Assembly (NCBI RefSeq): GCF_000376885.1
Contig: NZ_AQXR01000011.1
Location: forward strand, 124,001 to 188,000
Direction of reading: 5' to 3'
DNA from: Alloscardovia criceti DSM 17774
Lineage (GTDB): Bacteria > Actinomycetota > Actinomycetes > Actinomycetales > Bifidobacteriaceae
DNA length: 64,000 nt
The notes under the pieces were generated by a model. That model was not told the origin of the DNA and did no database searches. It saw nothing but the letters and a program-made list of their open reading frames with translations. This document shows positions 22,568 to 27,425 of this stretch, piece by piece; positions within the stretch are counted from its first letter, which is position 1, and every line of letters starts with the position of its first letter. The translations under genes were made by a program, and so were the position numbers.

Positions 22568-24373
22568 CTAGTACTGGCCGGCGAAATAAAAGCCATTCAA
22601 AGGCAGATATTGCACACTGCGCAGTTGTGCTAACGGAGAGGTGCCGGACGAAGAAGTCTGAGCGCTGTAATGCGCCAGTTCAGAGCCTGTGCCATCGTAT
22701 ACGGTCCACGTATGATCCCACGTATCAGTGGTGACGAGCATATTTTCGACCTTCTGGGCGTTGCCATCCAAGGCCGAGTAATCCGTTTGCACGGACGATT
22801 CCAAGGAATATGTGCGCGCAAACGGATCCACATGAAGCGTATACACAAAAGAATGCGCCTGCGTACCCGCCGGATCGACGCGCTGTGATGCCTGAGGAAT
22901 GGCCGCACTCCAGTTAAAGCTGGGATTGCTCGGGGAGTAGGCGAAATTATTATTCAACAAGGTGAGCGTATAACCGCTTGAGCTTACGTCGCTGATAGTA
23001 AGGCTGCTTTGCCCGGCAAAATCGCTGAAATCGCCGTTCTTCGCGAGCAGTAGATACGAGTATTTGGGATCCGTCCACAAGCCGGCAGGGCCGATAATCG
23101 AGGTCAAATTCGGCGAATCCGTCGAAATATCAATGCTCAGCAAGGAGGATGTTTCTCGCGACGACAGCAGAACGGTATCGTCATCAATCATGGCTATGGA
23201 ATTGAGTCCCAACCAATTCCAAGAACTATCCGTGGAGGTGCCGTCAGCCGCTAAGGCTAAGTGCTCGGTGGCGGAGCGGTAAGAATTCAGCAGCGTGGAG
23301 GTGTTGACCAGCATGCGCGTTTTACCGTTGAGAGCGCTGATGCGCACCACATACGTGCCCACCTCATGTGTCTCGTCATAGGTCGCTCCATCGGTAGCAA
23401 TGGCCACAATATTTCCCGCCGAATCCATCGTAAAATCACCGGCCAGCGAGTAGCGGTCACCAAAATTAATGAAATTATCTACATAGCCCGTGCGGTCTAC
23501 AGCCACGATTTGCGTAGGGCTGATAGCGTAGTACAGATGATTCTTGTACTGGATAAAACGTGTGGCCGAGGAATTTTTCAAAGGAATTTCGCCACGCAAA
23601 ACCCCATCAGAGTCGTATAAATACGTGAAATTCGCATTGCCGGAGCTGCGGGGCATGACTGCAAAGAGCCCGTCCCCCAAATTTGTGTACGGCACATTCG
23701 ACCCCGTGTGTGCCAAATGTGACACAGAAATCTGTACGGGCTCGTTGGACAGCACATCGCCCATGTCGTAGGAATATGTGCGCGTAGTCTGCTCACCCGC
23801 GGCATCCGTAATAGTGAAGGTCACCACGTTGCGCGTGGAGGGAATCAACCCGATAACTTGGAATTCGTGCGTGCGACCACGCTGTGTAGTCGTGGAGACG
23901 GTGCGACTAAAGGTGGGATAATTCGTTTCCGGTGCAGACACGCTGTAAGATACACTCATTGGCTGCTCGGTGACGAAAAAGATGTACAGCGAGTTCGTAT
24001 TTGTGCCAAAAGGATTTGCTTCGATGAGCATGTGATCCATAGTGAAGCGTGTGCTAGCTTTTTGGCGATCTATCTGGTTTTGTGCTCGCGTTTGATAGCC
24101 GATGGTATAGATGCGTTCGATGGAGTCTGATAGCAGATTTTCTGGGGAATTGCGTCTTTCATTGTAATACGTCAAAGCACCCCAGAGAGTGAGGATAACG
24201 ACGAGCACCACAGACAGAGAAACTGCGCTACGACGTAAACGTTCTAATAAGCTTTGGGATTCTAATGCCTTCTTGGGCAGGTCTCGAGCTTCTCTCGAAG
24301 ACGGAACAGACCTGAAATCGGAGCTTTTCGTACGGTTTCCCGATGTATGGTGCACGATTTCAGGTCTGGTCAT
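22568..24373 (-). CDS. Arylsulfotransferase-fold membrane-anchored protein lacking the catalytic histidines
   Basis: 601 residues: a charged N-terminal tail, one membrane segment at about 50-68, then an extracytoplasmic domain resembling the ASST N-terminal domain and beta-propeller (ANPFGTNTNSLYIFF near 115, HEFQVIGLIPST near 170, SWNWLGLNSIAMIDDD near 387, VLLSSRETS near 404). ASST enzymes move sulfate between phenolic compounds through a sulfo-His intermediate. At the three places where my recollection of the family has His (HHD near 272, xHLNSI near 387, GQHDA near 456), this protein reads TRF, LGLNSI and GQSSL. The Arg in SSR is kept, 17-18 residues after the second site, as expected. 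It is therefore probably not a sulfotransferase; a binding or structural role is inferred. It ends at the terminator shared with def. Confidence 0.65.
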   Translation of the reverse strand: MTRPEIVHHTSGNRTKSSDFRSVPSSREARDLPKKALESQSLLERLRRSAVSLSVVLVVILTLWGALTYYNERRNSPENLLSDSIERIYTIGYQTRAQNQIDRQKASTRFTMDHMLIEANPFGTNTNSLYIFFVTEQPMSVSYSVSAPETNYPTFSRTVSTTTQRGRTHEFQVIGLIPSTRNVVTFTITDAAGEQTTRTYSYDMGDVLSNEPVQISVSHLAHTGSNVPYTNLGDGLFAVMPRSSGNANFTYLYDSDGVLRGEIPLKNSSATRFIQYKNHLYYAISPTQIVAVDRTGYVDNFINFGDRYSLAGDFTMDSAGNIVAIATDGATYDETHEVGTYVVRISALNGKTRMLVNTSTLLNSYRSATEHLALAADGTSTDSSWNWLGLNSIAMIDDDTVLLSSRETSSLLSIDISTDSPNLTSIIGPAGLWTDPKYSYLLLAKNGDFSDFAGQSSLTISDVSSSGYTLTLLNNNFAYSPSNPSFNWSAAIPQASQRVDPAGTQAHSFVYTLHVDPFARTYSLESSVQTDYSALDGNAQKVENMLVTTDTWDHTWTVYDGTGSELAHYSAQTSSSGTSPLAQLRSVQYLPLNGFYFAGQY

Positions 24374-24480
24374 GTGTTCTCCACCTTTATCCGTTATTTC
24401 AAGTCCTCTTTAAGAATTATACGAGAGAACCCTACGAAAAGTGCGGACAGAGGCAGGAGAGTGCGTATGCAGTTGTGCGT

Positions 24481-25803
24481 TTAGATGTTCATCAAGTCGT
24501 TGAAGGACTCGATCATCGTAGGATGTGTGAAGATAGCATCACGCATATAAGTGTAAGGAATGTGGTTATCCATAGCCATCTTAATGTAGTTGATGAGCTC
24601 TTCAGCCTTATCGCCGTACAAGCTGGCGCCCACGATTTCCTTGGTGTCCTTGTCTACGACCACCTTGAAAAGACCGCGAGGGTCATTGTTGATCTTGTGA
24701 CGAGGAATGGAATTGACAGGAATGGTGTTTTCTGCCACATTCATGCCCTTGTCCCGCGCTTCTTGGAAGGTCAGACCAATGCGAGCCAAGGTTGGGGTGA
24801 TGAAGACGGAGTATGGCACGTGTCCGCGGTTTTGTGTGGTGCGATGTCCATTACCGAAGATTTGGCTGCGTACAATGCGGAAGTCGTCTAGAGAAATATA
24901 GGTGAACTGCATGCCACCATATACATCGCCCACAGCATACACACCTGGCACAGTGGTTTCCAACTTTTCGTTGACGACGATTTCGGAGCGGTCTCCCACC
25001 TTGATATCCGTGTTTTCCAAGCCGAGACTTGCGATGCGAGGGCGGCGACCCGTAGCCACCAGCACAGCATTGCCATCAAAATCGCCTGCGCTGGTGTGTA
25101 CTGTGGCAAAGCCGTCGTGATCGGTAACAGACTGCGTGTCCACATTCAGTACGAATTCCACACCCGCAGCCTTCAAATCCTTAATGGCTTCTTCTGCAAT
25201 CTGTGCATCTTCGCGCGGCATAAGCTTGCCTGAGCGCTCCAACACGGTGACTTTGCTGCCAAAAGTGGTGAGCATAGACGCAAACTCGAGAGCAATGTAT
25301 CCGCCGCCGATGATGACAACTTGGCGAGGCAGATTGTTCAAATCCAAAGCCTCGGTAGAGGTAATCATGTACTGGGAATCTGCAAGACCCTCAATGTCTG
25401 GGACGATGGAGGTAGCGCCTGTGTTGATGATGATGTGCTCAGCTGTATAGGTATCGAGTACCTTATCGCCATCGAGCACTTCTACGGTCTTATTTCCAGT
25501 AAACCGGGCTGTGCCATCAATAACCTGGATATTGTCATCATCTGCCAGCATGTGGTAATTCTTGCCGTTCAAGGCGCTGACCACAGCCTTTTTGCGATCC
25601 ATGGCATCGTCGAAGTTTAATCCTTGATTGCTAGCTACAACGAGGGTCTTGCTTGGGATGCAAGCGATGTTAATGCAGGTGCCGCCGTACATAAGCTTGG
25701 ACTGCTCAATCACTGCTACAGTTTTACCTTCTTTGCTGGCTGCCTTGGCAAAAGTCTTTCCTGCTTTTCCAAAACCGATGATGATGAAATCAAACTGTTG
25801 CAT
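24481..25803 (-). CDS. RclA-like flavoprotein disulfide reductase
   Basis: 440-residue class I pyridine nucleotide-disulfide oxidoreductase. The FAD motif GFGKAG is at 10-15, the redox pair is Cys43-Cys48 (GGTCINIACIPSK), and a second Rossmann motif IGGGYIALEFA (about 165) binds NAD(P)H. The C-terminus has FTHPTMIES with the His-Pro-Thr and Glu of the catalytic dyad. The overall sequence resembles RclA/YkgC-type proteins, linked to reactive chlorine and copper stress, more than lipoamide dehydrogenase. AAGGAGA precedes the ATG. It overlaps the upstream Rrf2 gene by 14 nt, so both are co-translated and the regulator probably controls it. Confidence 0.85.
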   Translation of the reverse strand: MQQFDFIIIGFGKAGKTFAKAASKEGKTVAVIEQSKLMYGGTCINIACIPSKTLVVASNQGLNFDDAMDRKKAVVSALNGKNYHMLADDDNIQVIDGTARFTGNKTVEVLDGDKVLDTYTAEHIIINTGATSIVPDIEGLADSQYMITSTEALDLNNLPRQVVIIGGGYIALEFASMLTTFGSKVTVLERSGKLMPREDAQIAEEAIKDLKAAGVEFVLNVDTQSVTDHDGFATVHTSAGDFDGNAVLVATGRRPRIASLGLENTDIKVGDRSEIVVNEKLETTVPGVYAVGDVYGGMQFTYISLDDFRIVRSQIFGNGHRTTQNRGHVPYSVFITPTLARIGLTFQEARDKGMNVAENTIPVNSIPRHKINNDPRGLFKVVVDKDTKEIVGASLYGDKAEELINYIKMAMDNHIPYTYMRDAIFTHPTMIESFNDLMNI

Positions 25804-26227
25804 GAGATTTCTCCTTAGAAATAATGGTTTTTAAAATGTCGTCGATGGTGTATTGGCTGTAATAGTTTTTGAGGATCTTGAATTCCTCGTGAACTAAAGC
25901 GCTAGTAATGGAGCTCATATTGCGTGAAATTTCGCAGGAGCTGTCCGGCGTGCCGGTGAGGATGCGTGGATCGATATCGTGGTTTCGTAAGAGTTCAAAA
26001 AGCGTGGAAAGCTGTACGTCGTTGGTAAGCGGAGTGGCGGTGTATCCGCCGGACTTTCCGTTCTTCGATTCTACTAATCCTTGATCGCATAACACACGCA
26101 TTACGCGGCGAAGTTGCACGGGATTTACGCAAATGAGCTCGGCAAGTTGAGATGATGAAAAGGACTCACCCGCATGCTTAGACAGATATGCCAAAGCATG
26201 TATAGCGATGGTGAATTGTAGATTCAT
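25790..26227 (-). CDS. Rrf2-family transcriptional regulator
   Basis: 145 residues with the Rrf2 winged helix: MNLQFTIAIHALAYL at the N-terminus, recognition helix region ICVNPVQLRRVMRVL, wing SGGYTATPL. Cysteines are at 33, 47 and 98. Only Cys98 lies in the region where IscR/NsrR carry three Fe-S ligands, so Fe-S binding looks unlikely and thiol redox sensing is possible. The ATG has AGAGG upstream. It is the first gene of a two-gene operon with the RclA-like reductase and diverges from the secreted protein gene at 26372. The AT palindrome at 26252-26265 in its promoter is a candidate operator. Confidence 0.88.
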   Translation of the reverse strand: MNLQFTIAIHALAYLSKHAGESFSSSQLAELICVNPVQLRRVMRVLCDQGLVESKNGKSGGYTATPLTNDVQLSTLFELLRNHDIDPRILTGTPDSSCEISRNMSSITSALVHEEFKILKNYYSQYTIDDILKTIISKEKSHATV

Positions 26228-26297: not shown

Positions 26298-26371
26298 AGG
26301 AAGTGGTGTAAATTAGAATAGGTGGAGGAGAGAAACTAAAGCCATAATATGTAGGGATGGAGAAGAGAAAA

Positions 26372-27355
26372 ATGAATAGTGTAGAAGAATCTGAGGCTGA
26401 AAAAGTAGTTGCGGAGCGCCGGAAGAAGCGCAAGCTGGTTACCATCTCCAGTATTCTTGTGGTGTTGTTGATTATTGGTGGTTGTGTGTATGGCTTGTTT
26501 CAGCAGCGCTCTCGTCTGATGGCTGCGTGTGGTGAGGCGAATGATGCGTATAAGACGGCGTATACGGCGTATGAGAAGCAGTATGGTCAAGCCCAATCTT
26601 TGGCTTCCTCGGTAGCGGCGGATCAGGTAGCGGACGCAACCACGTATGACACACTGAGCAAGCATGCGAATACGAAGCTGAAGAAAGCGGTAGCGTTAAA
26701 CTGCACCATCAGCTACAGTCAGATATTTGACTTTTCTACAGCGCGTCTGGATGATCAAACCAAGAATGTGACCAAGGAAACAGTAGCAGTGAAGAAGGCT
26801 GTGACTGCGGTTGAAAAATCGAAAGCCGACAAAGACTTAGAGAATGCGAAGGCTAGTGCGCAGGTTAAGTTGGATGAGGCGAATAATCTGTACAATTCGT
26901 CTGATGGTCAAGTAGCTGATAATGCGACACGTGATCAGTTAAAAACTCTCATTGATACTCTCCAAAACGCATTAAATGATACGAATGCGACTGTGGAGTC
27001 TCTCAATAAGGCTCTTGAGCCAGTCCAGGGTGGAATAGACGGTGTGAACGCAAGTGTGCAAGCCAAGAACGATGCTGACGCACAAGCCGCCGCTCAGGCT
27101 GCTGCTCAAGCTCAAGCGCAGGCTCAGGCTGCTGCACCAACCTATAGTGGCGGATCGTATAATAGCGGTCGTTCCTATTCATATTCAGGTGGCGGAGCAA
27201 CTGCTCCAGCTCCAGCAGCTCCGGCTCCAGCAGCACCATCTGCTCCAGCAAATAATGGAGGCGGAGATAATTCAGGTAATTGGCGCGATGCATGGAAAAA
27301 TCAGACTGGAGGATCATGTACCGCTAATAATAGTTGCATTTATGAAGTTGGCTAA
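26372..27355 (+). CDS. Secreted/membrane-anchored hypothetical protein with Ala/Pro-rich linker
   Basis: Not recognised as a known family. 327 residues: acidic then Arg/Lys-rich N-terminus (1-21), one membrane segment (22-43), an alpha-helical external region rich in Ala, Lys, Asp and Gln (about 50-245) that looks coiled-coil, a low-complexity Ala/Gln then Gly/Ser/Tyr and Pro/Ala linker (about 245-300), and a short C-terminal piece with two Cys (GGSCTANNSCIYEVG) that could form a disulfide. There is no LPXTG sorting signal. The ATG at 26372 has GGAG 9 nt upstream; an ATG at 26357 is possible but has poor spacing. A terminator at 27385 makes it monocistronic. A surface or cell-wall-associated role is inferred from layout only. 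Confidence 0.75.
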   Translation: MNSVEESEAEKVVAERRKKRKLVTISSILVVLLIIGGCVYGLFQQRSRLMAACGEANDAYKTAYTAYEKQYGQAQSLASSVAADQVADATTYDTLSKHANTKLKKAVALNCTISYSQIFDFSTARLDDQTKNVTKETVAVKKAVTAVEKSKADKDLENAKASAQVKLDEANNLYNSSDGQVADNATRDQLKTLIDTLQNALNDTNATVESLNKALEPVQGGIDGVNASVQAKNDADAQAAAQAAAQAQAQAQAAAPTYSGGSYNSGRSYSYSGGGATAPAPAAPAPAAPSAPANNGGGDNSGNWRDAWKNQTGGSCTANNSCIYEVG

Positions 27356-27384: not shown

Positions 27385-27425
27385 AGTGTGGCTCAATCCT
27401 TGTAAGGGTTGAGCCACACTTTTTT
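27385..27425 (+). terminator. Strong Rho-independent terminator
   Basis: A 16-bp stem (27385-27400 with 27405-27420, one G.U pair), a 4-nt loop TGTA, then T-rich sequence. It closes the secreted-protein gene. Confidence 0.9.

Follow-up and report, generated by a model that had tools for sequence, protein, structure and literature searches.

A probable arylsulfotransferase pseudoenzyme, apparently kept in the cell envelope after stepwise loss of its catalytic histidines

The window (the whole stretch of DNA analyzed here, 64,000 nucleotides) encodes a protein with the predicted fold of the arylsulfate sulfotransferases (ASSTs) that lacks histidine at all three sites where these enzymes use it. 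There is strong support for the loss of its sulfo-histidine chemistry. We consider it likely, with a probability of roughly 70%, that the protein is a pseudoenzyme, i.e., that it lost catalysis in steps and was kept as a binding or scaffold protein of the envelope. The comparisons below show the predicted fold, the missing residues and the order of their loss across genera, the intactness of the genes, and a change of rate that differs between domains; loss of activity, surface location, and a binding or scaffold role are what we infer from them.

The gene is the only PF05935 gene in its genome of 1.88 Mb, which also encodes a phosphoketolase and an actinobacterial-type aminopeptidase N (TIGR02412); the GC content of the window is ~50%. 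These features are consistent with Bifidobacteriaceae. By profile, the protein belongs to both PF05935 (Arylsulfotrans; E = 2.3e-30, 106.3 bits) and PF17425 (Ig-like domain; E = 4.5e-17, 62.3 bits), with scores far above the curated cut-off (24.2 for each), and the 601-residue sequence matches none of the NCBIfam models. A Shine-Dalgarno-like AAAGGTGG lies 7 bases 5' of the ATG start, and together with a TATAAT element it suggests a candidate promoter of the gene's own, with a weak -35 region; a scan did not list it. The layout on the minus strand is as follows:

22568..24373 (-): predicted pseudo-arylsulfotransferase gene, 601 aa, ATG start (PF05935 and PF17425, AlphaFold model, match to 3ETT)
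24381..24421 (-): TATAAT (24421-24416) and Shine-Dalgarno-like AAAGGTGG (24388-24381), read from the sequence
24272..24373 (-): cytosolic N-terminal tail, residues 1-34, disordered in the model and conserved in the genus (RTKSSxxRSxPS)
24149..24271 (-): predicted membrane-spanning helix, residues 35-75 (model helix 35-75; hydrophobic SLSVVLVVILTLWGAL read from the sequence)
24038..24148 (-): extracellular helical stalk, residues 76-112 (model helices 77-88 and 91-107)
23714..24037 (-): Ig-like N-terminal ASST domain, residues 113-220 (PF17425; strands in the model; rate relative to glmM about as in His-bearing genera)
22583..23686 (-): beta-propeller domain, residues 230-597 (PF05935; structural match to 3ETT/3ELQ and 9KF6)

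The AlphaFold model, built with 38 relatives (pLDDT 85, pTM 0.81), consists of the disordered tail, the helix of residues 35-75, which is probably a type II membrane anchor, the helical stalk, a beta-sandwich, and a propeller. This is the fold of the ASST family, and the ASST-like fold claimed in the original prediction is thereby borne out. Foldseek ranks the E. coli ASST first. In a search of solved structures, the full-length match to the E. coli enzyme (3ETT) reaches Z 25.7 (rmsd 3.4, 438 residues aligned), the propeller of Cpz4 (9KF6) reaches Z 26.1 over 327 residues, and the next unrelated propellers appear only at Z 19. When solved structures were searched by sequence alone, neither the window protein nor a profile of the eight altered proteins described below retrieved an ASST; the broader profile A1 did. 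Like the AssT of E. coli CFT073 (PDB 3ELQ, 3ETS, 3ETT), the window protein places an Ig-like domain before the propeller and carries the equivalents of Arg374 and Asn358 within an NW..xNSI..LSSR frame; unlike it, the window protein lacks H252, H356, and H436 as well as the Cys418/Cys424 pair, its N-terminal helix probably serves as a membrane anchor, and its gene has no dsbL/dsbI neighbors. The Streptomyces sulfotransferase Cpz4 (PDB 9KF4, 9KF6) shares the propeller fold, but the match covers only residues 203-596 of the window protein and leaves the Ig-like part outside; the titles of the PDB entries describe Cpz4 as a functional enzyme in caprazamycin synthesis, unlike the window protein, which is predicted to be inactive.

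The catalytic set of ASSTs comprises His252, His356, Asn358, Arg374, His436, and Thr501, with His436 transiently sulfated, and H436 and its neighbors have been reviewed as conserved in all known ASTs (PMC13426309). With the ASST gene from the E. coli CFT073 genome, aligned with the relatives, as the reference, these positions map as follows:

23435..23443 (-): HHD site, here A311-G312-D313 (region of E. coli H252; context SLAGDFTMD), from the alignment
23207..23209 (-): G389, at the position of E. coli H356, from the alignment
23156..23158 (-): R406, the kept equivalent of E. coli R374, from the alignment
23006..23008 (-): S456, at the position of the sulfated nucleophile H436, from the alignment

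Five genomes represent the window's genus, each with one copy of the gene, and in the alignment the three sites lack histidine in each of the five. The nucleophile position holds Ser or Asn, and the sulfuryl-coordinating positions of His252 and His356 (AGD and G389 in the window protein) are likewise devoid of histidine. The equivalent of Arg374 is present in 5/5 genomes, and N391 of the window protein occupies the Asn358 position, where Asn is kept in three of the five species. An absence common to five genomes is not explained by chance or by a single faulty sequence. Thus, the original prediction that all three active-site histidines are lost agrees with the alignment, its homologs across the genus included, and its picture of a membrane-anchored propeller without sulfo-histidine chemistry is well supported by alignment and predicted fold together. 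The second site, the third site, and the kept Arg had been placed correctly (G389, S456, R406), whereas the TRF taken for the HHD site (residues 271-273) was misplaced by 40 residues; since the true site, AGD at 311-313, also lacks histidine, the conclusion is unchanged. Furthermore, 73 alignment columns are at least 95% conserved in 30 His-bearing relatives, and 14 of them are changed in all five species of the genus. All four conserved His columns fall among these 14, for which the chance expectation, C(14,4)/C(73,4), is ~0.0009.

No His or Cys of the propeller is conserved across the genus, and the sole invariant His, H169, lies in the Ig domain; the possibility of another histidine taking the catalytic role was rejected on this ground. 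Because the family depends on His436 as the nucleophile of its chemistry (PMC13426309), which is Ser or Asn here, and because neither a coordinating histidine nor any other conserved His or Cys is left in the propeller, the window protein very probably cannot transfer sulfuryl groups, as judged from its residues. An enzyme with another chemistry in the same pocket, e.g., one based on Ser, Asp, or Asn, would fit the partly kept pocket shell and N538, a residue adjoining the T501 position that is common to this genus and its sister genus and new relative to the Ser of other relatives. However, the old catalytic positions vary within the genus (G/D, S/N), and the missing conserved His or Cys also counts against it, so that we regard such an enzyme as very improbable.

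The main rival to a pseudoenzyme scaffold is ligand binding in the old pocket: the protein would serve as a receptor or binding protein whose ligand is an anionic aromatic compound, sulfated or otherwise, bound without transfer. The retained Arg406, Gln455, and Trp387 (the last two equivalent to Q435 and W354), together with Asn391, could mean that the pocket is still of use, against the pseudoenzyme reading. PDB entry 4P05 is, by its title, the H436N mutant of the E. coli enzyme carrying substrate in its active site, and two species of the genus have Asn at this position. The pocket nevertheless differs within the genus, with G389/N391/S456 in three species and D389/D391/N456 in the other two, and the added acid would disfavor an anionic ligand. 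A pocket that is neutral or acidic depending on the species speaks against a single shared sulfated ligand. As the propeller is moreover less constrained than the Ig-like domain (see below), we consider a receptor of this kind unlikely.

In the sister genus (g15, three genomes), HHD is gone and Q, E, or M stands in place of His356, but the GQH nucleophile is retained in 3/3 genomes; one of its three proteins has Gln for Arg374. Elsewhere in the family and order, 30/30 relatives compared keep all three sites. In the phylum-wide sample, the nucleophile His is found in 25/25 readable matches, and the His356 position is His in 26 of 27 and Tyr in one. In the sister genus, as in the window's genus, the gene sits beside def, glmM, and pepN. 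The gene tree unites the altered proteins of the two genera in a single clade (100/100), and the glmM tree likewise places the genera as sisters (97/93). The single clade, the sister relationship by glmM, and the shared place beside def indicate vertical descent, and vertical descent with this residue pattern points to stepwise loss, the coordinating sites first and the nucleophile last. Judged by its residues, the sister genus is an intermediate stage with the nucleophile histidine only. The His-bearing ASST homologs in other genera of the same family share the architecture, the N-terminal anchor, the NPYGTNT motif, and ~30-37% identity with the window protein. They differ in keeping HHD, HxN, and GQH, in their genome location (none of the copies examined matches the def-glmM-pepN neighborhood), and in a propeller better conserved than the Ig domain, a difference that is clear in g4 and g6.

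Other departures from the canonical sites were seen at larger distance. A distant ASST homolog (L119, G759:C74:3453-4361) has Tyr at the His356 position with the nucleophile kept, and is another partial variant. Two distant phylum-wide matches are without the HHD pair; L093 and L096 have NFW there and keep His356, Arg374, and His436. Another member of the phylum has a 2125-residue open frame with two tandem arylsulfotransferase domains (L092, G780:C8:179941-182793). Two matches from the first contig scan, in Cohnella and Paenibacillus, were rejected as chance hits to membrane regions of two-component histidine-kinase-like proteins, and the viral contigs searched held no relative of the window protein.

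A functionless gene decaying toward loss would be expected to evolve fast, and this one does: identity within the genus is 53-69%, vs. 90-96% for glmM, and three of the five species lack the C-terminal GFYFA end. On the other hand, the altered genes are intact in 8/8 genomes of the two genera despite ~0.35-0.42 nonsynonymous changes per site (0.23 for the closest pair). By contrast, the His-bearing gene is reduced to remnants in several single-contig g4 genomes (G013, G023, G032, G053, and G056). The pN/pS ratio of 0.27-0.44 within the window's genus, compared with 0.05-0.24 for glmM, def, pepN, merA, and xseA, is a rough figure as synonymous sites are saturated; it speaks against decay, but it is high, and selection on the propeller itself is only loosely shown.

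The rates of the two domains were compared relative to glmM of the same genome, with a domain border set by hand and few genera. The propeller evolves at 4.6-9.4 in the two altered genera vs. 1.3-4.2 in His-bearing genera, i.e., about two to four times faster, whereas the two groups differ little in the rate of the Ig-like domain (mostly 3-5, with largely overlapping ranges). The ratio of Ig to propeller divergence is 0.72 (0.57-0.88) in the window's genus, 1.61 (1.33-1.93) in g4, and 1.71 (1.19-2.37) in g6; it is ~1.16 in g5 and g8, with intervals that include 1. The cytosolic tail shows a mean pairwise identity of 0.50 in the genus and 0.47 in the sister genus, vs. 0.13-0.27 in four His-bearing genera, and no other protein of the window's own genome carries its motif. 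The intact genes and the domain-specific rates argue against simple decay, as does the conserved tail and Ig-like domain, and we hold decay to be quite improbable. That constraint has moved off the propeller and onto the Ig-like domain and tail favors a binding or scaffold role over plain decay.

Under the pseudoenzyme reading, the ancestor would have been a membrane-anchored ASST with an Ig-like domain and a propeller, inherited vertically. Both sulfuryl-coordinating sites (HHD and H356) would have been lost in the common ancestor of the two sister genera, and the nucleophile H436 would later have become Ser or Asn in the window's genus, after which ping-pong transfer via sulfo-histidine could not run. 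The protein would have been retained at the cell surface, its selected function carried by the tail, membrane helix, stalk, and Ig-like domain, probably through contacts with partner proteins or the envelope, while the propeller, being less constrained, may serve as a platform for structure or ligand binding. A more specific version is possible, and we put it forward tentatively: a transmembrane scaffold or signaling pseudo-sulfotransferase, in which the newly conserved tail and Ig-like domain took over from a propeller freed from catalysis, with the sister genus as a living intermediate.

Pseudoenzymes are well known among kinases and phosphatases. Our literature search found none described among the PAPS-independent arylsulfotransferases. 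The two sister genera offer a stepwise route, coordinating histidines first and nucleophile last, with constraint moving from the catalytic to the accessory domain. Database names derived from PF05935 would label such proteins sulfotransferases, and genes very likely incapable of the reaction would enter tallies of gut or oral sulfation capacity.

Directly upstream of the gene, at 24481-26227 (-), lie a merA-type hypothiocyanous acid reductase (NF041853, over the cut-off) and a HypR regulator (NF041852, just under the cut-off). The pair is found upstream of the gene in three of the five genus genomes and is absent from the locus in the other two, and a search of the sister genus's def locus did not find it; a link to merA/hypR was rejected for these reasons. 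In one genome (G003, L041:6778-7173), the peptide deformylase match is an open frame of 131 aa vs. 217 aa elsewhere, possibly a start-site or frame problem. At 26357-27355 (+), a 332-aa open reading frame with no Pfam match stops ahead of a strong terminator-like hairpin at 27385-27420.
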